Shown piece by piece: positions 6,395 to 50,554 of a stretch of 64,000 bases of DNA. The notes under the pieces were generated by a model, which worked only from the letters and a program-made list of their open reading frames with translations, was not told the DNA's origin and searched no databases. Source of the DNA: Hyphomicrobiales bacterium (GTDB lineage: Bacteria > Pseudomonadota > Alphaproteobacteria > Rhizobiales > Beijerinckiaceae); contig CANGPL010000003.1 of the NCBI GenBank assembly GCA_947455725.1, positions 1-64,000 of the forward strand. The letters run 5' to 3'. How positions within the stretch are numbered: the stretch's first letter is position 1; each line of letters starts with the position of its first letter. Position numbers and translations under genes: made by a program.

Positions 6395-6468
6395 TGGAGG
6401 CCTCGCCCGGAATCGAACCGGGGTACGAGGATTTGCAGTCCTCTACGTGACCACTCCGCCACGAGGCC
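6395..6468 (-). tRNA. tRNA-Cys (GCA)
   Basis: The 74-nt gene includes encoded CCA. The acceptor stem GGCCTCG pairs perfectly with CGAGGCC. The anticodon loop reads CTGCAAA with anticodon GCA, the T loop is GGTTCGAATC, and the discriminator base is U, as expected for cysteine tRNA. Confidence 0.95.
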
Positions 6469-6655: not shown

Positions 6656-6731
6656 TCCTCGATAGCTCAGCTGGTAGAGCGTTCGACTGTTAATCGAATG
6701 GTCGCAGGTTCGAGTCCTGCTCGAGGAGCCA
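6656..6731 (+). tRNA. tRNA-Asn (GTT)
   Basis: The 76-nt gene includes encoded CCA. The acceptor stem TCCTCGA pairs with TCGAGGA, the D arm is AGCTCAGCTGGTAGAGC, the anticodon loop is CTGTTAA with anticodon GTT, the T loop is GGTTCGAGTC, and the discriminator base is G. Confidence 0.96.
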
Positions 6732-6777: not shown

Positions 6778-6807
6778 TGAACCGGCTGGCCTGTTAATCC
6801 GTAAAAT
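6778..6807 (+). promoter_or_regulatory. Candidate ECF sigma (RpoE/ChrR-type) promoter of the photolyase operon
   Basis: TGAACC (6778-6783), an 18-base spacer, then TAAAAT (6802-6807) lie 32 bases before the photolyase start. The Rhodobacter sphaeroides RpoE consensus is close to TGATCC-N18-TAwrTA, so the -35 differs at one position and the -10 at two. A second element with the same spacing precedes chrR. This is a pattern match by eye, not a scored prediction. Confidence 0.35.
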
Positions 6808-6839: not shown

Positions 6840-8297
6840 ATGTCCGACTCAATTCTCGTCTGGTTTCGCAACGACCTTCGTTTGCTCGACAATCCCGCCG
6901 TCCTCGACGCCCATCGTTCCGGTCAGCCCATCCATTTCGTTTATATTTTCGATGACAGCGGAAAACACGCGCGGCCCTTAGGTGGCGCTCAGAAATGGTG
7001 GCTGCACCAAAGCCTCACCCGCCTCTCGGAGGATATTTCAAAGCGTGGCGGTCGCTTAGTTCTGTTTCGCGGCGATCCGGAAAAAATTGTTCCACATCTT
7101 GTCAGCGAGTGGCGTCCGTCGAAAGTGGTCTGGAACCGCCGCTATCATGCAGCAGACATTGCATGTGACACCGCCATCAAAGCGCAATTGGAAGCCCAAG
7201 GCATTGCCGTCAAAACCTTCAATGGCACTTTGATTCGGGAACCTTGGACACTTGTTTCCAAAAGCGGGGGTGCCTTTAAAGTCTTCACGCCGTTTTGGCG
7301 GGCTGCACGAGAAAATCATGACGTGCCCTCCCCGCAAGCCGCACCTGACGCCTTTGCGTCCCCCCCTAATTCGTCATCGAACTTGTCTGTATCTTTGGCG
7401 GACCTAGCACTCGAACCCAAAAAGCCGAATTGGGCCGAAAGCATTGCCGAGGCTTGGGTGCCGGGAGAAGCCGGTGCGCTAGCAGCGCTTGAAACCTTCA
7501 TCGATCACGGCTTTGCAGGCTATGCGGAAAACCGCAACCGGCCCGATATGCCGTCAACCTCGCGGCTTTCGCCCTATCTGCGATTTGGCGAAATTTCGAT
7601 CAATCGCGTCTGGCATACCAGTGAAATGGCCGTGCAATCAGGCCGTACGAAGGCAAGCTCTGAGGATCTGAGGGTCTTTCAATCGGAACTCGGCTGGCGC
7701 GAGTTTTCCTATTATTTGCTCTATCACCAGCCTGATATTTCTAAAATCAACGTCCAGAGACGGTTCGACGAATTTCCGTGGCAGAATGATCCGGCGATGT
7801 ACAAAGCATGGTGCCGCGGTCAAACCGGCTATCCGATTGTGGATGCGGGCATGCGCGAGCTTTGGCAAACCGGTTTCATGCACAACCGCGTGCGCATGAT
7901 CGTTGCGTCCTTTCTGATTAAGCATCTCAGGATCGACTGGCGGCAGGGCGAAAACTGGTTCTGGGACACGCTTTTGGATGCCGATCCCGCGAGTAATCCA
8001 GCGAGCTGGCAATGGGTGGCGGGTTCAGGAGCCGATGCTGCGCCCTTCTTCCGGATTTTTAATCCCATGCTTCAAGGCGAGAAATTCGACCCGAAGGGCG
8101 ACTATGTGCGCCACTATGTCCCCGAACTCGCCCGCCTCTCGAACAAATATATTCAAGCCCCATGGACAGCGGGCCCGCTCGAATTAACCGCGGCGGGCAT
8201 TAAACTGGGCACGACCTACCCTCGCCCGATCGTCGATCACGATGCCGCGCGCAACAGCGCCCTTGCGGCTTTCAAGGCGCTCACGGTATATACGTAA
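6840..8297 (+). CDS. phrB: Deoxyribodipyrimidine photolyase (class I, cryptochrome/photolyase family)
   Basis: Flavoprotein that repairs UV-induced cyclobutane pyrimidine dimers using visible light. The 485-residue protein has the N-terminal antenna-chromophore domain (VWFRNDLRLLDNPAV, residues 7-21). Its C-terminal FAD domain contains GYPIVDAGMRELWQTGFMHNR and the NPASWQWVAGSGADAAP region with the tryptophans expected near the electron-transfer chain. Length is normal for class I CPD photolyases. It is first in an operon-like run with an FAD oxidoreductase, DUF1365 and a CFA-type methyltransferase, a set that in several proteobacteria responds to light or singlet oxygen. The start is ATG 6840. 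Confidence 0.95.
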   Translation: MSDSILVWFRNDLRLLDNPAVLDAHRSGQPIHFVYIFDDSGKHARPLGGAQKWWLHQSLTRLSEDISKRGGRLVLFRGDPEKIVPHLVSEWRPSKVVWNRRYHAADIACDTAIKAQLEAQGIAVKTFNGTLIREPWTLVSKSGGAFKVFTPFWRAARENHDVPSPQAAPDAFASPPNSSSNLSVSLADLALEPKKPNWAESIAEAWVPGEAGALAALETFIDHGFAGYAENRNRPDMPSTSRLSPYLRFGEISINRVWHTSEMAVQSGRTKASSEDLRVFQSELGWREFSYYLLYHQPDISKINVQRRFDEFPWQNDPAMYKAWCRGQTGYPIVDAGMRELWQTGFMHNRVRMIVASFLIKHLRIDWRQGENWFWDTLLDADPASNPASWQWVAGSGADAAPFFRIFNPMLQGEKFDPKGDYVRHYVPELARLSNKYIQAPWTAGPLELTAAGIKLGTTYPRPIVDHDAARNSALAAFKALTVYT

Positions 8298-8332: not shown

Positions 8333-9631
8333 ATGAAGCTTGCTATTATTGGTAGTGGTATCGCTGGAAACGCCGCTGCTTACGCTTTAGCATCGTCCTC
8401 AGCCCATAAAATTACGGTTTTTGAGCAAAATGACCGCCCCGGCGGCCATTCCGCGACGGTTACGGTCGATTATGACGGAATGTCAATTCCAGTTGACACC
8501 GGCTTCATCGTCTACAACGAAAACAACTATCCCGAGTTCAAAGCCCTGCTCGCGCATCTCAACGTCGCAACCCACGCCTCCGATATGAGCTTTGCGCTGT
8601 CGGTAGATGGCGGGCGCTTTGAGTGGTGCGGGCGCGATAAAAATCCGATGGGTGGTCTTTTCGCCCAACCGCAAAACCTGTTCTCGCCGAGCTATCTCAA
8701 AATGCTCCTCGAGATTTTGCGCTTTAATAAACTGGCGCTCGCTGATCTGAAAGCCGGACGGCTCGGCGATGGCTCCCTTGGCCGGTACCTCTTGGCCAAT
8801 GGCTTTTCCGCCCGCTTCCGTAATGATTATCTTTTGCCCATGGGAGCTGCGATTTGGTCGATGTCGACCGAATCCATGCTGAATTTCCCGGTCAAATCCT
8901 TCATCACGTTTTTTAATAATCACCATTTGCTGCAATATAACGGGCATCAATGGCGCACCATCACCGGCGGTAGCCGCGTCTATGTCGAACGGCTGATCGA
9001 CGCTTTCCGCTCCCGCTTGCGCCTATCGACGCGGGTGATGAAAGTCGAACGCAGCGCCCATGACGTCACCCTTACCTTTGAAGACGGCTCGAACGAACAG
9101 TTTGACGGTGTCGTCTTTGCCTCCCATACCGATCAGACCATGGCGATCTTGGCGGATGCAACGCCTCAAGAGCGCGCGGTGCTCGGCTCAATCGCGTACA
9201 AGCCAAACACGGTCTATCTCCACCGTGACCCGAGCCTCATGCCTAAGCGCAAGCGGGCTTGGGGTTCTTGGAATGTGATTCAACGCAAAGACCGCAATGA
9301 AGATTTATGCGTAAGTTACTGGATGAACCGGCTTCAAGGCATCGATCCTTCGCGTCCGATCTTTGTAACGCTTAATCCGCCCGAGCCGCCTGCGGAGCAT
9401 CTGACCTTTGGTCGATATGTCTATGATCATCCCCAGTTCGATCATGCAGCCATTGGTGCGCAAACCAAGCTTGATTCCATCCAAGGCCGTAACCGCGCTT
9501 GGTTCTGCGGCGCATGGGCCAAACATGGCTTCCACGAGGACGGATTAAGATCAGGCCTCGACGTCGCCGAGCGTTTGGGCGCTGTCCCCGAATGGCGGCC
9601 ACGGCCTGCTTATGCAGAGGCAGCGGAATGA
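8333..9631 (+). CDS. FAD-dependent amine-oxidase-like oxidoreductase of the CFA/furan lipid cluster
   Basis: This 432-residue flavoprotein begins with a Rossmann dinucleotide motif (MKLAIIGSGIAGNAAAYALA, GxGxxG at residues 7-12). It has the second flavin-binding block GGHSATVTVDYDG and a C-terminal FAD motif near CGAWAKHGFHEDGLRSGLDVA. It belongs to the amine oxidase/desaturase-like family that sits beside DUF1365 and CFA-synthase genes in many proteobacteria. An upstream in-frame ATG at 8300 exists, but the motif position favours 8333. It overlaps the next gene by ATGA. In R. sphaeroides, relatives are implicated in methylated furan fatty acid synthesis; that role here is inferred. Confidence 0.85.
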   Translation: MKLAIIGSGIAGNAAAYALASSSAHKITVFEQNDRPGGHSATVTVDYDGMSIPVDTGFIVYNENNYPEFKALLAHLNVATHASDMSFALSVDGGRFEWCGRDKNPMGGLFAQPQNLFSPSYLKMLLEILRFNKLALADLKAGRLGDGSLGRYLLANGFSARFRNDYLLPMGAAIWSMSTESMLNFPVKSFITFFNNHHLLQYNGHQWRTITGGSRVYVERLIDAFRSRLRLSTRVMKVERSAHDVTLTFEDGSNEQFDGVVFASHTDQTMAILADATPQERAVLGSIAYKPNTVYLHRDPSLMPKRKRAWGSWNVIQRKDRNEDLCVSYWMNRLQGIDPSRPIFVTLNPPEPPAEHLTFGRYVYDHPQFDHAAIGAQTKLDSIQGRNRAWFCGAWAKHGFHEDGLRSGLDVAERLGAVPEWRPRPAYAEAAE

Positions 9632-10440
9632 CACCGGTCGAGGCGGGATTATTCGTCCCGCCACAAAGTGCGGCCTGTTTCTATGTCGGCCCCGTCATGC
9701 ATGCGCGGATGAAGCCGGTTCTGCATCGCTTTTCCTATCGCGTTTTTTCGATGCTGATTGATCTTGCCAAGCTCAACGAAGCCAAGAGCCTCAGCCCGTT
9801 TTTCTCGATTAATCGGTTTAATCTCCTAAGCCTTTTTGAACGCGATCACGGCCCGAAAACGGGTGTTTCTCTTCATGCCTATGCGCAGGATCTCTTTCAA
9901 TCAGCTGGCGTCGATCTAACGGGCGGCAAGATCATGCTCCTGTGTTACCCGCGCATCTTGGGCTATGTCTTTAACCCGCTCTCGGTCTATTTCGGCTATG
10001 GAGCAAATGGCGCGTTGAAAGGCGTGCTGTACGAGGTGCGCAACACGTTCGGTCAAATGCACACTTATGTTGAGCCCGTTGAAGCCGGAATGTTAACACG
10101 GGCAGGCTTACGCCAAGAGCGTGCGAAACGCTTCTACGTCTCGCCTTTCAATGCACTCGATATGACCTATTTTTTTCGGGTTAAACCACCCAGACAAGAC
10201 ATCGCAGTACGCATTTTGGTGAAGGACGATGAAGGCCCTGTGTTAGCGGCGAGTTTTTACGGCAATATGCAGCCATTAACCACGCAAAACCTTCTATGGC
10301 TGTGCTTGACGCTTCCCCTTCTTACCCTCAAGATTATCGTAGGAATTCATATTGAAGCGTTCTGGCTATGGGTAAAAGGAATGCGTCTTGTTCCTCGTCC
10401 CCCGCCACCACCCAAAATAAGTCTTCCCGGCGATCAATAA
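9628..10440 (+). CDS. DUF1365 family protein
   Basis: A 270-residue protein of the DUF1365 family, recognised from AACFYVGPVMHARMKPVLHRFSY near the N-terminus, the central CYPRILGYVFNPLSVYFGY block (both conserved) and the C-terminal hydrophobic helix LLWLCLTLPLLTLKIIVGIHIEAFWLW. The ATG at 9628 overlaps the stop of the FAD gene as ATGA, giving translational coupling. DUF1365 proteins are nearly always encoded between an FAD oxidoreductase and a CFA-type methyltransferase, as here. The biochemical role is not firmly established; the association points to modification of unsaturated membrane fatty acids. The C-terminal helix suggests membrane contact. Confidence 0.88.
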   Translation: MTPVEAGLFVPPQSAACFYVGPVMHARMKPVLHRFSYRVFSMLIDLAKLNEAKSLSPFFSINRFNLLSLFERDHGPKTGVSLHAYAQDLFQSAGVDLTGGKIMLLCYPRILGYVFNPLSVYFGYGANGALKGVLYEVRNTFGQMHTYVEPVEAGMLTRAGLRQERAKRFYVSPFNALDMTYFFRVKPPRQDIAVRILVKDDEGPVLAASFYGNMQPLTTQNLLWLCLTLPLLTLKIIVGIHIEAFWLWVKGMRLVPRPPPPPKISLPGDQ

Positions 10441-10493: not shown

Positions 10494-11741
10494 ATGCTGG
10501 ATATTCCGTCCAATCAAATGGCCCCCGTTCACCTGACGCAAGAAACGGTATCACGTCACACGCAAGGCCTGCCCTTTCTGGTTCGCCAAGCGCTGAGCTT
10601 TGCCTGCCGCATTGAAGTCGGAACGCTCACCGTGACGCTGCCCGATCAACGCGTCTTTACCTTCGGCGGCTTGCAACCCGGCCCCAATGCCGAGATGCAT
10701 ATGCACGACTATACCTTCACCAAACGCATGTTTTCATCAGGTGATATCGGCATCGCGGAATCCTTCTTACGGGGCGAATGGACGACGAAGGATTTGACCA
10801 CGTTTCTCCTTCTCTTTTGCGCCAATCACCACCTTATTTCAGCCATGCTCGCCGACAAGCCGATCATCCGCTATTGGCAATTGTTCAAATATTGGTTGAA
10901 CCGGAACACCAAAACCGGTTCGCGCAAAAACATCCATGCGCATTACGATCTCGGCAACGCCTTTTACACCAAATGGCTTGACCCATCGATGACCTATTCA
11001 TCCGCGCTTTTCACTGCGAATGATAAGGATCTCTATCAGGGCCAACAAAATAAATATGCCGCACTCGCGCGCGAATCCAACATTGAGACCAATCATTCGG
11101 TCTTGGAAATTGGCTGTGGCTGGGGTGGCTTTGCCGAATACGCAGCGAAAGAAATTGGCTGCAAAGTAACGGGTCTTACCATCTCGCAAGAGCAATATGA
11201 TTTTGCCAAAAAGCGTATCTTTGAAGCGGGCTTAAACGAAAAAGTTGAGATCAAATTTCAAGACTATCGCGACGAAAAAGGCATTTATGATCGCATCGCT
11301 TCCATCGAGATGTTCGAGGCGGTAGGCGAGCAATTTTGGCCCGTCTATTTCAACACGCTGAATAATCGCCTGAAGAGCGGCGGCGTCGCTGGCTTGCAGG
11401 TCATCACCATTCAAGATCGCTTCTTTGATTCCTATCGTTTGGAAGTTGATTTCATCCGCCGCTATATTTTCCCGGGCGGCATGTTGCCCTCGCCTTCCAT
11501 CATGAAAAAGCTTGGCGAAAAAGTCGGCATGGCCATCAAGCACGAGCGCATTTTCGGGGTTGATTATGCTGATACGCTTGCCGAATGGCGCAACAAATTC
11601 AGAGCCGCTTGGCCCGAATTAACGCCGCTCGGTTTCGATGAGCGCTTCCGTCGCATGTGGGAATATTACCTCGCCTATTGCGAAGCAGGTTTTCGCGCCG
11701 GCAATATCGATGTGCGGCAAATCGTTTACGCCAAAGCCTAA
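10494..11741 (+). CDS. Cyclopropane-fatty-acyl-phospholipid synthase family methyltransferase
   Basis: SAM-dependent methyltransferase of the CFA synthase family (415 residues from this start). The SAM motif is VLEIGCGWGGFAEYA (about 204-218). Family hallmarks include NIHAHYDLGNAFYTKWLD, MTYSSALF, and QEQYDFAKKR followed by YRDEKGIYDRIASIEMFEAVG. It methylates the double bond of unsaturated phospholipid acyl chains, making either cyclopropane or methyl-branched products; which one cannot be told from sequence. Upstream in-frame ATG codons exist at 10473 and 10368. I chose 10494 because AAGAGA sits just before it. It is last in the photolyase operon and converges on the SDR gene with 6 bp between stops. 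Confidence 0.9.
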   Translation: MLDIPSNQMAPVHLTQETVSRHTQGLPFLVRQALSFACRIEVGTLTVTLPDQRVFTFGGLQPGPNAEMHMHDYTFTKRMFSSGDIGIAESFLRGEWTTKDLTTFLLLFCANHHLISAMLADKPIIRYWQLFKYWLNRNTKTGSRKNIHAHYDLGNAFYTKWLDPSMTYSSALFTANDKDLYQGQQNKYAALARESNIETNHSVLEIGCGWGGFAEYAAKEIGCKVTGLTISQEQYDFAKKRIFEAGLNEKVEIKFQDYRDEKGIYDRIASIEMFEAVGEQFWPVYFNTLNNRLKSGGVAGLQVITIQDRFFDSYRLEVDFIRRYIFPGGMLPSPSIMKKLGEKVGMAIKHERIFGVDYADTLAEWRNKFRAAWPELTPLGFDERFRRMWEYYLAYCEAGFRAGNIDVRQIVYAKA

Positions 11742-11747
11742 CAGGAC

Positions 11748-12554
11748 TTAAGACCCGCTGGGCTTCGTATTGTCCCAGCCGGTCATTTTGGCGATCAGGC
11801 CAAAATAGAGCGAGTAAGGCAGCATATTGAGCGCCTTAAGAATAAAAGCGAAACGGCGCGGAAACGTAATCTCGAACCCGCCCCGTTCAAAGCCATCGCA
11901 AATGCGCCGCGACGCTTCATCAAGTTTCATCAGAAATGGCATAGGATGATCGTTTAACGCGGTAAGCGGTGTCTCCACAAAGCCCGGATTGACCACCTGC
12001 ATCGTAATACCAAGCTGATCCGTATCGAATTTCAGGCTCTCCGCCATCGCGATCAAGGCCGCCTTGCTACCCGAATAGGCACCCGCGCGCGGCAAGCCGC
12101 CATATCCCGCTACCGACGCATTAAACGCAATCTGCCCCCGCTTGCGCGCTGTCATCTTCGGCAAAATCGCCGAGAGGCAATTAATGACGCCATAGACATT
12201 CACGTCGAAGGTCTTGCGAAACCCGTCGGCATCAAAAGGTGCCGCTCGCAACGGGAAATAAATGCCAGCATTCAGAAAACAAAGCACAATCTCGCCGTGC
12301 TCTTGCTCAATTTTTTCGACAAGGGCTGCAATACCGACCGCATCGGTGACATCACCAATTGCCGGGATAATGCGTCCCGAAAGGCCTGTGGCTTCCGCCA
12401 CCAATGTTTCAAGGTCAGGCAGACGCCGTGCGGTAGCGATAACCGTATAGCCGCGCCGCGCCAATTCCACGCAAGTCCCGCGGCCGATGCCCGAGCTCGC
12501 TCCCGTTACCCATGCTACCCCATCAGACGCCGAAGCTCGATAGGTGCTGGTCAC
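11748..12554 (-). CDS. Short-chain dehydrogenase/reductase (SDR) in the chrR operon
   Basis: A classical SDR of 268 residues. The cofactor motif TGASSGIG is at residues 17-24, NAG occurs in FLNAGIYF, and the catalytic pair lies in AYSGSKAALIAM (Tyr and Lys). A GTG start at 12554 lies one base after the chrR stop and has a GGGG ribosome-binding element inside the chrR tail, so translation is probably coupled. An SDR commonly accompanies the FAD, DUF1365 and CFA genes in light or oxidative-stress clusters. The substrate is unknown. A TTG further upstream (12590) would create overlap with chrR and is less likely. Confidence 0.85.
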   Translation of the reverse strand: MTSTYRASASDGVAWVTGASSGIGRGTCVELARRGYTVIATARRLPDLETLVAEATGLSGRIIPAIGDVTDAVGIAALVEKIEQEHGEIVLCFLNAGIYFPLRAAPFDADGFRKTFDVNVYGVINCLSAILPKMTARKRGQIAFNASVAGYGGLPRAGAYSGSKAALIAMAESLKFDTDQLGITMQVVNPGFVETPLTALNDHPMPFLMKLDEASRRICDGFERGGFEITFPRRFAFILKALNMLPYSLYFGLIAKMTGWDNTKPSGS

Positions 12555-12555
12555 G

Positions 12556-13197
12556 TCAATACCCCATAAAATGCTGGAACAATCGGCCAAACGGGCCGGT
12601 CAACCGTAAAGGCGCATCATTGACGACGAAGCAGATGCAATCCTCGCCCTCATCAGCCTTCGGCCGATGGTCGATCTCGCCATCCGCAATCGCGATATCA
12701 CCGCGCGCATAATGCTGATTGCCATCGCTAAAGGCCCCCTGAAGAACCAACGTGATCTCTGTGCCATCATGCGTATGCGACGGCATCGTACGGCCCGCTT
12801 TAATCCAGAGCAACGAAGCCTCGCATCCGGACGGATCCTTACGCGCGTATTCTTTTAAACCTGGCAAACGCGTGCGCCACTTCAACTGGTTGAGATCCGA
12901 ACCGATAAACGCCGCAATCGGCTCAGGCACCAGCTCATCGGCAGAAGAAACGCGTTCCTTCGGCACCTCAACGGGCTGGCTGAAAATCTGGTTGAGCATC
13001 TTATCCCGATTGGACAGCGGCGATGGCGCGACCTTCTCGATCTTCTCGGAATGCAAAATTTCCATCGCCTCAACAAAGCCGCGGTTATCCGGCTTCATCA
13101 ACAAATGGGCGGCAATCAAACCATGCAAAGGCGCGGGCAAATGGCCAGCAGCATAGCCAGCGAGTAAGGTGTTGAGAGCACCCTCTTCTTCTGTCAT
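12556..13197 (-). CDS. chrR: ChrR family anti-sigma factor lacking the N-terminal zinc ligands
   Basis: A 213-residue protein collinear with Rhodobacter ChrR, the zinc-dependent anti-sigma factor that releases RpoE upon singlet oxygen. The C-terminal cupin has all four metal ligands at the family positions (H141, H143, E147, H177) plus C187 and C189. In the N-terminal anti-sigma domain only H31 is kept. Positions 6, 35 and 38, which are His, Cys and Cys in R. sphaeroides, are Gly, Lys and Asn here, and there is no cysteine at all before residue 125. No sigma-factor gene adjoins it. ATG 13197 was preferred over an upstream TTG because it aligns with the known N-terminus. It may bind a sigma factor without zinc or may have become a cupin sensor only. 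Confidence 0.87.
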   Translation of the reverse strand: MTEEEGALNTLLAGYAAGHLPAPLHGLIAAHLLMKPDNRGFVEAMEILHSEKIEKVAPSPLSNRDKMLNQIFSQPVEVPKERVSSADELVPEPIAAFIGSDLNQLKWRTRLPGLKEYARKDPSGCEASLLWIKAGRTMPSHTHDGTEITLVLQGAFSDGNQHYARGDIAIADGEIDHRPKADEGEDCICFVVNDAPLRLTGPFGRLFQHFMGY

Positions 13198-13329
13198 CTT
13201 AGACGCTAAGGTCAAAACCGCCGCTCCAAATTGCAAAACACGAAAATCTCTACGGAATCATCTAACGATTGGATTGATTTACAATAAAAAATGTTCGGCT
13301 AAATTTACAGGCGTCTTATTGGCGCACCT

Positions 13330-13392: not shown

Positions 13393-14424
13393 ATGAAAAT
13401 CGCCAATACCGTCCTCGATGCCATTGGAAATACTCCTCTTATCCTGCTAAAACACGCTTCCGAACTTACAAAATGCACCATTTTGGGCAAAGCGGAGTTT
13501 ATGAACCCCGGCGGCTCGGTTAAGGATCGCGCGGCGCTCGCCATCATCAACCATGCGATGGCCTCCGGCGCCATGAAGCCGGGCGGGACAATTGTTGAGG
13601 GTACCGCCGGCAATACCGGCATCGGCCTAACCTTGGTTGCCAATACGCTTGGCCTTAAATCCGTGATCGTCATTCCGGAAACCCAGTCGATTGAAAAGAA
13701 AAACGCCCTCCGTCAGATGGGTGCCGAACTGATCGAAGTACCAGCAGTGCCCTACTCCAATCCCAATAATTATGTGAAACTTTCCGGACGATTGGCCGAA
13801 AAACTGGCCCAATCGGAGAAAAGCGGGGCCATTTGGGCCAATCAATTCGACAATATCGCCAATCGGCAAGGCCATATCGACACCACAGCCCCTGAAATTT
13901 GGGAACAAACCGGCGGTAAAATCGACGGTTTCATTTGCGCGGTTGGTACGGGCGGCACGCTTGCAGGCACTGGCATTGGTCTCAAGCGCTTCAATCCCGC
14001 GATTAAAATCGGCTTGGCCGATCCCATGGGGGCGGCCCTTTATTCCTTCTACACCAATGGTGTCCTTAAATCCGAAGGCTCGTCGATGACGGAAGGCATC
14101 GGCCAAGGCCGCATCACCAAAAACCTCGAAGACGCCCCCATCGATATCGCCTTCCAAATCCCGGATACCGAGGCAATACCCCTCACTTTCGACCTGCTTG
14201 AAAAAGAAGGCTTAGCACTTGGTGGCTCATCGGGCATTAATGTCGCAGGCGCGATACGCCTTGCCCAACATCTTGGACCGGGCCATACCATCGTCACCAT
14301 CCTCTGCGATGGCGGGGCACGCTACGCCTCCAAACTCTATAACCCCGACTTTTTGCGTTCCAAGCAATTACCCGTACCCCATTGGCTGGAACGCCAATCG
14401 ACCATCAAACCGGATTTCATCTAA
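13393..14424 (+). CDS. cysK: Cysteine synthase A (O-acetylserine sulfhydrylase)
   Basis: PLP enzyme that joins sulfide with O-acetylserine to give cysteine. The 343-residue protein has the PLP lysine K44 in NPGGSVKDRAAL, the substrate loop GTAGNTGIGL, the phosphate-binding glycine loop GTGGTLAGTG, and a C-terminal GGSSGIN. It is about 20-30 residues longer than E. coli CysK, as is usual for the alphaproteobacterial type. The start is ATG 13393. The next gene, alaX, overlaps its TAA by one base, and sseA follows, so the three form a likely sulfur and cysteine-related operon. Confidence 0.94.
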   Translation: MKIANTVLDAIGNTPLILLKHASELTKCTILGKAEFMNPGGSVKDRAALAIINHAMASGAMKPGGTIVEGTAGNTGIGLTLVANTLGLKSVIVIPETQSIEKKNALRQMGAELIEVPAVPYSNPNNYVKLSGRLAEKLAQSEKSGAIWANQFDNIANRQGHIDTTAPEIWEQTGGKIDGFICAVGTGGTLAGTGIGLKRFNPAIKIGLADPMGAALYSFYTNGVLKSEGSSMTEGIGQGRITKNLEDAPIDIAFQIPDTEAIPLTFDLLEKEGLALGGSSGINVAGAIRLAQHLGPGHTIVTILCDGGARYASKLYNPDFLRSKQLPVPHWLERQSTIKPDFI

Positions 14425-15137
14425 TGCCGACCGACTTACTCTTTAGAGACGATGCCTATCTCCAAGAATGCTCCGCAACCGTAACCGCGATCAATGAGCG
14501 CGGCGGTATCGTGACAGATCGGACCGTGTTTTATGCAACGGGCGGCGGACAACCCGGCGATACGGGTACAATGAAAACCGCCGATGGTTCGGAAATCATC
14601 ATCGCAACAACCGTTTATGGCGAGGACAAATCCGACATCGTCCATGTGCCAGCCGAGAACTCGGCCCTGCCTAAGATTGGCGATACGGTCACCCTCGTGC
14701 TTGATTGGCAAAAGCGCTTGCAACGCATGCGCATTCATACCGCGCTGCACCTTCTAACGACCGTCCTGCCCTACCCGGTGACAGGTGGATCCATCGGCGA
14801 TGGCGATGGGCGTCTTGATTTCGATATTCCCGATGCCGGTCTCGATAAGGATGAGATCGCCGCCGAACTGAACCGCCGGATCGATCAACACGCAGACGTC
14901 GACTATCGCTGGATCAGCGATGCCGAGCTCGAAGCCAACCCGGGTCTCGTCAAAACCATGTCGGTCAAGCCACCGATGGGAACGGGCCGTGTGAGGCTGG
15001 TTGAGATTGCAGGCTTAGACCTGCAACCCTGCGGCGGCACCCATGTCCGTAACACCTCAGACATTGGTAAAGTCAGCGTCACGGCGATTGAGAAAAAGGG
15101 TAAAATCAACCGCCGCGTCCGCATCACTTTAGCCTGA
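14424..15137 (+). CDS. alaX: Alanyl-tRNA editing protein AlaX
   Basis: Free-standing relative of the AlaRS editing domain that hydrolyses Ser-tRNA-Ala (and in some members Gly-tRNA-Ala). Zinc-binding residues are visible as HxxxH (H105 and H109 in RIHTALHLL) and CxxxH (C203 and H207 in PCGGTHV). The 237-residue length fits the AlaX-M type, with an N-terminal beta-barrel portion (YATGGGQPGDTG). The ATG at 14424 overlaps the cysK stop (TAATG), indicating coupling. Linking mistranslation control to serine-derived cysteine synthesis is a reasonable but unproven reading of the operon. Confidence 0.92.
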   Translation: MPTDLLFRDDAYLQECSATVTAINERGGIVTDRTVFYATGGGQPGDTGTMKTADGSEIIIATTVYGEDKSDIVHVPAENSALPKIGDTVTLVLDWQKRLQRMRIHTALHLLTTVLPYPVTGGSIGDGDGRLDFDIPDAGLDKDEIAAELNRRIDQHADVDYRWISDAELEANPGLVKTMSVKPPMGTGRVRLVEIAGLDLQPCGGTHVRNTSDIGKVSVTAIEKKGKINRRVRITLA

Positions 15138-15150
15138 AGAAAGAAAACCC

Positions 15151-15990
15151 ATGTTCAACGCCCTGTTTGTCACGACCGAATGGCTGAGCAACCACCTCAA
15201 TGATCCGGATGTCTCGATCATTGACGCGAGCTGGTACCTGCCCACCATGAACCGCGACGGCAAGGCGGAGTACGCGGCCGGTCATATTCCTGGCTCAGTC
15301 CATTTCGACATTGACGCGATAGCGGACACATCAAGCCCGCTTCCCCATATGTTGCCGACGCCGGAATTCTTCGCCGACACCGTTGGCAAAATGGGCATCT
15401 CGGATAAGGACACCATCGTCATTTATGACGGCGCGGGTCTTTTCGCAGCCGCCCGCGTCTGGTGGACCTGCCGCGTCATGGGCGCGACCAAGGTCTCCAT
15501 CTTGGAAGGCGGCGCCCCCAAATGGCGCGCGGAGGGTAAGGCTTGGACCGATGCGACAACGGAAAAGCCAAAAAAGACCTTCCACCCAAGCTTTCATCCG
15601 GCTGCGGTCGCGGATTTGCCCGCGATCAAACAGGCGCTTGAAAAACATGCGGCGCAAATTGTGGATGCCCGTCCCGCCGAACGTTTTCGTGGTGAAGCAC
15701 CCGAACCACGCCCGGGTTTAGCCTCGGGCCATATGCCGGGAAGTTACAATGTGCAGTTTTCGGATATTGTTACTAACGGGCAGCTAAAACCCGCAACCGA
15801 ATTACGCGAGGCCTTCACCAAGGCAGGCGTCAACATCAATCAACCGATCATCACAAGCTGCGGGTCCGGCGTCTCCGCCGCTATCCTAGCCCTCGCCCTC
15901 GAAAGCCTCGGCCACCCGGCCAAAGCGCTATATGATGGCTCATGGGCGGAATGGGGCGCGCGTACCGATTGTGATGTGATGAAGGGATAA
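15151..15990 (+). CDS. sseA: 3-mercaptopyruvate sulfurtransferase (rhodanese family)
   Basis: Two-domain rhodanese of 279 residues that transfers sulfur from 3-mercaptopyruvate (or thiosulfate) to thiol or cyanide acceptors. The inactive N-terminal domain contains VSIIDASWYLP and HIPGSVHFDID. The C-terminal domain has the catalytic Cys237 in the loop CGSGVSA, which matches the 3-mercaptopyruvate type (CGSGVT) better than the thiosulfate type. The start ATG 15151 is 13 bp after alaX, consistent with a cysK-alaX-sseA operon in sulfur amino acid metabolism. A nested inverted repeat follows the stop. Confidence 0.93.
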   Translation: MFNALFVTTEWLSNHLNDPDVSIIDASWYLPTMNRDGKAEYAAGHIPGSVHFDIDAIADTSSPLPHMLPTPEFFADTVGKMGISDKDTIVIYDGAGLFAAARVWWTCRVMGATKVSILEGGAPKWRAEGKAWTDATTEKPKKTFHPSFHPAAVADLPAIKQALEKHAAQIVDARPAERFRGEAPEPRPGLASGHMPGSYNVQFSDIVTNGQLKPATELREAFTKAGVNINQPIITSCGSGVSAAILALALESLGHPAKALYDGSWAEWGARTDCDVMKG

Positions 15991-49159: not shown

Positions 49160-50554
49160 ATGGCCAAACGTTCCCCAAGCTTCGCGTGCCAAAATTGTGG
49201 CGCGGTTTATACACGCTGGCAGGGACGCTGTGACGCCTGCGGAAATTGGAGCACCATTGCCGAAGAAGCGGCAGAGGCACCGCTGCCCGGCGGAACGGCA
49301 TTACCGAGAAGCAAAAAAGGACGTGTCTTTGCGCTTGAAGGTCTCATCGGAGACGCCCCCGAAGCGCCTCGCGTTTCAAGCGGCATCGATGAGCTTGATC
49401 GCGTAACGGGTGGAGGATTTGTTCCGGGTTCGGTTATTCTTTTAGGTGGCGATCCCGGTATTGGTAAATCAACGTTATTGATGCAGGCTTCCGCCGCATT
49501 GGCGATGAATGGCGAGCGCGTTGTTTACATTTCGGGCGAAGAAGCAACAGGCCAAGTACGCCTGCGCGCTGATCGTCTCGGGCTATCAAAAGCCCCTGTC
49601 GAACTCGCCGCCGAAACAAATGTCGAAGACATCATCACAACTTTGTCAAAAGGCCCCGCTCCTACCCTTGTTATCATCGATTCCATTCAGACGATGTGGT
49701 CTGAAAGCGTTGAATCCGCCCCCGGTACAGTGACACAAGTCCGCGGCTCGGCTCAGGCCTTGATCCGATATGCAAAAACCAGTGGTGCAAGCGTTATCTT
49801 GGTAGGCCATGTCACGAAGGATGGGCAGATCGCTGGACCACGGGTCGTGGAACACATGGTCGATGCGGTAGCCTCTTTTGAAGGTGATGGTGCCCATCAT
49901 TTTAGAATTTTAAGAGCAGCCAAAAATCGCTTCGGACCGACGGATGAAATTGGTGTTTTTGAAATGACAGGCTTGGGCCTTAAGCAAGTCTCAAATCCCT
50001 CGGCACTCTTCTTGGAAGGTCGAGACACTTCATCGGCTGGTACGGCGGTCTTTGCTGGCATGGAGGGCACCCGCCCCATGCTTTTGGAGTTCCAAGCTTT
50101 GGTCGCGCCATCTTCCTTAGGCACGCCACGCCGTGCGGTCGTTGGTTGGGACCCAAGCCGACTTTCCATGGTTATCGCAGTGCTCGAAGCCCATGGCGGG
50201 CTGAAGCTCGGCAATCATGACGTCTATCTCAATGTCGCGGGCGGCCTTAAGGTCAATGAGCCGGCAGCCGATCTTGCAGCCGCCGCTGCCCTCGTCTCCT
50301 CCTATTCCGGACATGCCCTTCCGCCAGACCGCGTCTTTATGGGCGAAATCGGATTGACCGGAGCCCTCCGGCCCATCGGACAGATCGCAGTGCGCATGAA
50401 AGAAGCAACGAAATTGGGCTTTGCGTCGGCGGTCATTCCCAAGCCAGGGCTTGAAGCGGTTGGAAAAACGAGCCTGCAAACCTACCCGATGAGTGATGTC
50501 GCCGATCTTGTGGCGGCGATTATCAGTGGACCAAAGCGGCATTCAGGCTCATAG
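49160..50554 (+). CDS. radA: DNA repair protein RadA
   Basis: RecA-related ATPase that drives branch migration in recombination. The 464-residue protein has the C4 zinc finger (C10, C13, C24, C27 in CQNCGAVYTRWQGRCDACGNW), Walker A GGDPGIGKSTL, the RadA-specific KNRFG motif in RAAKNRFGPTDEIGVFEM, and a Lon-like C-terminal domain (GLKLGNHDVYLNVAGGLKVNEP, FMGEIGLTG). The start ATG 49160 follows alr by 11 bp. Confidence 0.97.
   Translation: MAKRSPSFACQNCGAVYTRWQGRCDACGNWSTIAEEAAEAPLPGGTALPRSKKGRVFALEGLIGDAPEAPRVSSGIDELDRVTGGGFVPGSVILLGGDPGIGKSTLLMQASAALAMNGERVVYISGEEATGQVRLRADRLGLSKAPVELAAETNVEDIITTLSKGPAPTLVIIDSIQTMWSESVESAPGTVTQVRGSAQALIRYAKTSGASVILVGHVTKDGQIAGPRVVEHMVDAVASFEGDGAHHFRILRAAKNRFGPTDEIGVFEMTGLGLKQVSNPSALFLEGRDTSSAGTAVFAGMEGTRPMLLEFQALVAPSSLGTPRRAVVGWDPSRLSMVIAVLEAHGGLKLGNHDVYLNVAGGLKVNEPAADLAAAAALVSSYSGHALPPDRVFMGEIGLTGALRPIGQIAVRMKEATKLGFASAVIPKPGLEAVGKTSLQTYPMSDVADLVAAIISGPKRHSGS

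Follow-up and report, generated by a model that had tools for sequence, protein, structure and literature searches.

A light-stress switch that seems rewired to work without anti-sigma zinc in a clade of ChrR proteins

Here, we describe a ChrR protein encoded in a window of 64,000 nucleotides (the whole stretch of DNA that was analysed, on contig 3 of a Hyphomicrobiales bacterium) and the clade to which it belongs. The protein retains the metal cupin of this family of anti-sigma factors, whereas only one zinc ligand of four remains in its anti-sigma domain. The earlier note had presented it as a local oddity; instead, it belongs to a clade in which the zinc site, the order of the genes and the placing of promoters have all changed, and in which a light-stress switch apparently came to operate with no zinc in the anti-sigma domain. 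We put the probability at roughly 75% that the protein is functional as an anti-sigma factor and would fold and hold its sigma factor without zinc, sense stress through the cupin only, act on an unlinked ECF11 partner and form part of a damping feedback loop.

Results

The chrR open reading frame (Table 1) starts with ATG and encodes 213 amino acids. Its product matches the TIGR02451 profile over the full length with 158.9 bits, exceeding the curated cut-off of 124.5, and falls below the cut-off of the narrower equivalog NF051881 (122.3 versus 300). Residues 8-199 match R. sphaeroides ChrR (PDB 2z2s_B; E 1.4e-34), and in this alignment the positions of H6, H31, C35 and C38 are occupied by G, H, K and N, respectively, with all cupin ligands (H141, H143, E147 and H177) present. 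Thus, the central claim of the earlier note, that three zinc ligands are lost with H31 alone left and that the cupin set is whole, is borne out. Its description of the alignment as gap-free holds for the key positions, which are in register, and not for the linker, where small indels (around residues 61-85) sum to zero, so that residue numbering is identical on either side. The HisX3CysX2Cys motif and upstream His that constitute the zinc site of ZAS proteins are absent. Mapping of the four ligands across the family, which the same note had called for, revealed that the loss of C35 and C38 is clade-wide and that the cupin set is intact. A shift rather than a loss of the ligands is unlikely, given that residues 7-194 of the structural model superpose on residues 7-194 of ChrR in 2q1z, and a sequencing error in codons 35-38 is excluded because other genomes of the genus show K35/N38 or R35/N38; across the wider clade, S, K or R predominates at position 35 and N at position 38. 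The window protein is a full-length member of the ChrR family, neither an error nor a relic. A Cupin_7 match on contig 4 of the same genome was considered as a second ChrR and rejected, being a single cupin of 183 amino acids outside the TIGR02451 matches; its gene adjoins another short-chain dehydrogenase gene.

Table 1. Features of the chrR region, in positions of the window
Feature	Position	Strand	Basis or remark
Probable sigma-E-type phr promoter, TGAACC-N16-CGTA	6778..6803	+	1 mismatch to TGATCC-N16-CGTA; 7 of 5000 shuffles equal
DNA photolyase (phr)	6840..8297	+	PF03441, PF00875
FAD amine oxidase-like protein	8333..9631	+	PF01593
DUF1365 protein	9628..10440	+	PF07103
Cyclopropane-fatty-acid synthase-like protein, inferred start	10494..11741	+	PF02353
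Short-chain dehydrogenase	11748..12554	-	GTG start directly after chrR stop
chrR, zinc-site-less anti-sigma domain and metal cupin	12556..13197	-	ORF, profile, structure match, model
Cupin stretch with metal ligands H141, H143, E147, H177	12667..12777	-	Alignment
Codon 38, Asn replacing zinc ligand Cys38	13084..13086	-	Alignment
Codon 35, Lys replacing zinc ligand Cys35	13093..13095	-	Alignment
Codon 31, His kept	13105..13107	-	Alignment
Codon 6, Gly replacing zinc ligand His6	13180..13182	-	Alignment
Possible sigma-E-type chrR promoter, CAATCC-N16-CGTA	13251..13276	-	2 mismatches to TGATCC-N16-CGTA
Cysteine-synthase-like PLP enzyme (cysK-like), divergent from chrR	13393..14424	+	PF00291

Together with the short-chain dehydrogenase gene, chrR probably forms one operon, on which a series of plus-strand genes, for photolyase, FAD oxidase, DUF1365 protein and cyclopropane synthase, converges. 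The FAD amine oxidase-like and DUF1365 proteins are presumably the counterparts of RSP_1091 and RSP_1090, respectively. The RpoE regulon of R. sphaeroides, as given in a passage of PMC7074977, includes the photolyase phrA, the cyclopropane synthase cfaS and RSP_1090/91. Of the 76 unlinked loci of at least 6 kb, 68 have a cysK-like gene in the vicinity of chrR, versus none of 23 linked ones; this gene is a marker of the separated chrR locus, and phr was counted near chrR in 18 of these 76 loci, a count limited by short flanks. In the window, cysK-like, alanyl-tRNA-editing-like and rhodanese genes stand in a row (13393-15990), divergent from chrR, and a tRNA-Cys gene (6395-6468, minus strand) and a tRNA-Asn gene (6656-6731, plus strand) are located directly upstream of phr.

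The window's own genome, which is 90% complete, yields six Sigma70_r2 matches and holds one ChrR and one ECF11-like sigma factor. The latter is an ECF sigma factor on contig 12 (genome G000, from position 49693) with RpoE 2q1z_A as its best PDB match (E 6.3e-49), the likeness on which the ECF11 label rests; the ECF11-type rpoE that the earlier note had proposed to search for in the rest of the genome is thus present, and, with chrR on contig 3, the two genes are not adjacent. No anti-sigma gene was found 3′ of this rpoE. A split protein, with a zinc-bearing N-terminal half encoded beside the sigma factor, was rejected as well: the 300 bp after rpoE contain no such open reading frame.

The separated partners occur together. 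In a set of 60 genomes, with linkage assigned from coordinates, full-length ChrR is encoded in 38, the window's own included (37 above the cut-off; the other, in G042, scores 119.9 bits), with the sigma factor gene adjacent in 14 and non-adjacent in 24. All 24 genomes with unlinked ChrR carry a strong sigma match (at least 149 bits) elsewhere, whereas in the 22 genomes without full-length ChrR the best sigma match scores just 81.7 bits. Among 249 genomes of the order that are at least 90% complete (E up to 1e-20 for ChrR and up to 1e-28 for the sigma factor), ChrR was detected in 150, the sigma factor in 150, and both in 149. The only genome with ChrR alone (G275) has it at a contig end, and in the only one with the sigma factor alone (G081) no ChrR was found. 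For a group of 20 loci with unlinked ChrR, the genomes of 11 were examined, some of them identical with genomes of the sets above, and the sigma factor was recovered in all 11. On the complete chromosome of Labrenzia sp. THAF82, the sigma factor gene lies at 0.905 Mb and chrR at about 3.81 Mb, some 2.9 Mb apart. In the fetched stretches, all 73 genomes checked for an unlinked sigma factor (75 loci) have an IalB-like gene next to it, versus 0 of 77 linked loci; PF06776 was matched by a relative of this neighbour and not by the own genome's copy. That copy (L010:4931-5539, on contig 12) is divergent from the separated rpoE, and a functional link between the two genes is possible.

Separation and zinc loss largely coincide in the unlinked group. 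The 158 distinct ChrR sequences, a collection that leaves out about 60 linked ChrR genes, the ChrR of G107 and the second ChrR of G124, comprise 88 without a sigma factor in the fetched stretch and 70 linked ones. Neither C35 nor C38 is present in 85 of the former, with both in 3, and the linked sequences include 50 with both cysteines, 4 with one and 16 with none; the cupin set HHEH is complete in 158 of 158. The three unlinked sequences with both cysteines are a contig-end case (L236) and two from a single genus (L225 and L226, in G124 and G092) that retain all four zinc ligands. The loci concerned in G124 and G092 are L225, L226 and L227; besides its four-ligand unlinked ChrR, G092 holds a zinc-free one.

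A quick tree was built from 129 ChrR sequences with the zinc-ligand columns removed; it has long rows and no bootstrap. The 64 unlinked rows that are zinc-free all fall into a single clade (SH-aLRT 99), and the two remaining unlinked rows, with cysteines kept, lie outside it. Likewise, in a quick tree of 111 sigma factors, also with long rows and without bootstrap, all 53 unlinked rows (including that of G081) form one clade (96), so that the clades of the unlinked zinc-free ChrR and of the unlinked sigma factor match. The assemblage lies within one order and encompasses the window's genus, part of its family, Roseibium, Stappia and others. The cysteine state (both or none) changes at least six times on the ChrR tree, which means that zinc loss has not depended on separation only.

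The two genes also differ in their promoters. In a hexamer count run on the upstream regions with no preset motif, the strongest enrichment ahead of unlinked zinc-free chrR genes is that of TGATCC (64 of 85; 8.4 expected). The same word ranks first upstream of linked rpoE (58 of 69, once L071, which a contig end cuts, had been removed; 59 of 70 in the first count, with 6.8 expected) and precedes just 5 of 73 unlinked rpoE genes. The extended site, TGATCC-N16/17-CGTA, is found upstream of 57 of the 85 unlinked zinc-free chrR genes (64 if N15 is allowed), compared with a mean of 0.035 and a maximum of 1 over 200 shuffled runs and with none on the reverse strand of the 85 regions; it precedes 43 of 69 linked rpoE genes and 0 of 73 unlinked ones. 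By its letters and spacing, this clade site is the R. sphaeroides RpoE promoter, given as TGATCC(N15)GCGTA in a passage of PMC5036791. Judging by the difference between chrR (57 of 85) and unlinked rpoE (0 of 73), the anti-sigma gene seems to be under the control of its own sigma factor, which, lacking such a site, seems to have lost self-activation. Upstream of unlinked rpoE, the words TACCTTA (11 of 73; 0.1 expected) and GGTTACC (9 of 73; 0.4 expected) are enriched, and these might represent another promoter or an operator.

The case for promoter rewiring is strong for the clade and weak for the window's own genome. There, the candidate chrR site is degenerate (375 of 5000 shuffles match it, non-significant alone) and recurs in the same position and form in three relatives (L035, L036 and L043). 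The distance of the probable phr site is conserved to within one base in two others (L045 and L046). The exact sigma-E motif occurs at six sites in the own genome, none of them at chrR or phr, and at four for the reversed control, a margin too narrow to serve as evidence for this genome.

What, then, has become of the anti-sigma domain? Over the 12 closest pairs within the genus, dN/dS is 0.00-0.12 for residues 7-52, 0.03-0.08 for the cupin, and, for residues 53-90, 0.05-0.27 in 7 pairs and undefined in 5, all values being rough because most pairs are close to dS saturation. Purifying selection acts on the zinc-free helices, and the N-terminal domain is not decaying, with residues 53-90 evolving faster than residues 7-52 and the cupin; this faster segment includes helix IV, which in R. 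sphaeroides ChrR contacts sigma region 2. Several hydrophobic residues are specific to the clade (weighted frequencies: L11 0.94, L27 0.96, F/Y/W41 0.90, L45 0.83, L70 0.98 and I73 0.94), and G18 and L20 are likewise kept. An AlphaFold2 model of the window ChrR (mean pLDDT 92) places N-terminal helices at residues 3-17, 22-34, 36-54 and 64-73 and superposes 180 residues on the sigma-bound ChrR of 2q1z (Z 22.2, rmsd 2.1 Å), so that the four-helix anti-sigma fold is predicted to be retained; the fold-search matches are mostly cupins and are uninformative on other folds for the helical part.

The best surviving alternative, which we nevertheless consider improbable, is that the N-terminal domain has lost sigma binding and that the metal cupin works alone, as a sensor or an enzyme-like protein. 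In its favour, only one of the four zinc ligands remains, residues 53-90 evolve fast, and R. sphaeroides ChrR needs zinc binding to inhibit its sigma factor, according to a passage of PMC6852236, which establishes the requirement stated in the earlier note for that protein and not for the family. Such a loss, however, fits poorly with purifying selection on residues 7-52 comparable to that on the cupin, with the retention of G18, L20, L11, L27 and H31, with the confidently predicted helices, with the occurrence of ChrR and the sigma factor together in 149 genomes and apart in 2, and with the absence of both cysteines from 16 of 70 ChrR encoded next to their sigma factor.

Marginally less probable still is a domain that continues to bind metal, either through H31 and other residues or with a different metal. 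For this reading, 81 of the 85 unlinked zinc-free ChrR keep H31, despite the loss of its zinc partners, as do 13 of 16 linked ChrR lacking both cysteines, and the linked Kordiimonas types have His at position 35. The persistence of H31 also suggests a function distinct from zinc binding. By contrast, with position 35 in the unlinked zinc-free clade mostly S, K or R, position 38 mostly N and position 6 variable, there are no conserved alternative ligands at these sites.

Sequence distances bear on the pairing itself. Among 56 genomes, distances of the anti-sigma domain correlate with those of the sigma factor (partial r 0.52; 0 of 2000 permutations) when controlled for the IalB-like and cysK-like neighbours, 13 of 69 pairs having been dropped because a neighbour gene is missing from the stretch; the correlation with the neighbour genes themselves is 0.15-0.17. 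The cupin correlates with the sigma factor just as strongly (0.54), so that the signal does not single out the interface. Least probable of all is a switch of ChrR to another sigma factor or protein, with the separated ECF11 sigma controlled otherwise: the two genes lie far apart or on different contigs and the constant IalB-like neighbour might be a new functional link, but ChrR and the sigma factor co-occur and form matching clades, their distance correlation exceeds that of the neighbour genes, and chrR bears a promoter read by this type of sigma factor.

Discussion

The earlier note had left two readings, zinc-free sigma binding and loss of the N-terminal function. Comparative evidence favours the former, and the latter fits the data badly. 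We infer zinc-free sigma binding with metal-cupin sensing from co-occurrence, matching clades, purifying selection, clade-specific hydrophobic residues and chrR promoters, and the 16 linked ChrR that lack both cysteines and still adjoin their sigma factor count for a zinc-free explanation. Hydrophobic packing, instead of metal, would hold the helical anti-sigma domain together, and the zinc-free ChrR would hold the single ECF11-type sigma factor of the genome, encoded elsewhere (on contig 12). Stress would be sensed by the metal cupin alone; in R. sphaeroides ChrR, a passage of PMC6852236 reports, the cupin residues E147 and H177 are required for the response. Once freed, the sigma factor would turn on chrR and repair genes and not rpoE; it would thereby raise its own inhibitor without activating itself, since chrR of the clade, and not rpoE, bears the sigma-E promoter. 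A damping loop would thus replace the joint autoregulation of rpoE and chrR.

For the large clade as a whole, we regard a split circuit as the better bet, if with less assurance than for the single protein: an IalB-linked rpoE lacking the sigma-E promoter, a sigma-driven zinc-free chrR and cupin-only sensing. In its history, chrR would have stayed in the regulon cluster, lost its zinc site and gained a hydrophobic core. With sensing left to the metal cupin, anti-sigma zinc would be dispensable both for holding the sigma factor and for the stress response.

The clade is a natural experiment: the predicted fold, the cupin and the promoter code are the same and the zinc site is gone from a relative of R. 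sphaeroides ChrR, a founding zinc-dependent anti-sigma factor. What exactly the anti-sigma zinc of ChrR does in the singlet-oxygen response is described as unknown in a passage of a 2019 review (PMC6852236). Furthermore, ECF sigma factors without a nearby anti-sigma gene could, as suggested in a passage of a 2021 review (PMC8103513), be served by one located elsewhere, and the clade offers such a case, an ECF sigma factor whose only apparent anti-sigma factor is encoded elsewhere in the genome. A survey that, in the part cited here, collected anti-sigma factors within 10 coding sequences of the sigma factor (PMC7406223) would miss a separated pair of this kind. Such a rewired stress circuit, with feedback through the anti-sigma factor only in place of joint autoregulation, lends itself to testing. 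In the literature searched, at the level of titles, abstracts and passages, we found no description of a separated or zinc-free ChrR.

The closest known system is RpoE-ChrR of R. sphaeroides (ECF11; PDB 2q1z and 2z2s), which shares with the clade the two-domain protein, its numbering and cupin ligands, the sigma family and the promoter code, and whose regulon resembles the window in its photolyase and fatty-acid-modifying genes. Unlike in R. sphaeroides, chrR and rpoE of the clade are non-adjacent, the promoter stands at chrR with none at unlinked rpoE, and C35 and C38 are lost, as is H6 in the window ChrR. The linked cysteine-less ChrR found here (in Kordiimonas, Hellea and others) likewise have no C35 or C38 and keep the cupin, but they still adjoin rpoE and are located elsewhere in the tree. 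RseA, RskA and RsiW partner other ECF sigma factors (SigW, SigK and E. coli RpoE) and lack the ChrR cupin. These Class I anti-sigma domains are helical bundles that do not need zinc, and RsiW has a zinc motif and binds independently of zinc, according to passages of PMC7406223 and PMC6852236; the bundle can be stabilised by zinc-protein contacts, as in ChrR, or by protein-protein contacts, as in RseA (PMC6852236, same passage level), and some groups in the survey mix zinc and non-zinc members (PMC7406223, in the part cited). In S. meliloti, RsiA1 is likewise encoded apart from its ECF sigma factor RpoE2 (a passage of PMC8103513), but this is a general stress system with a second anti-sigma factor, RsiA2, in the rpoE2 operon. 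In C. glutamicum SigH-RshA, rshA likewise possesses a sigma-dependent promoter of its own, for which a role in shutting down the response has been proposed (abstract of PMC3489674), although both genes are still cotranscribed. Thus, the single elements have precedents, and what is new, as far as our searches went, is their combination in one ChrR clade. Profile, predicted fold and cupin all identify the window protein as a ChrR, and it has neither the ZAS site nor the rpoE-chrR gene order.
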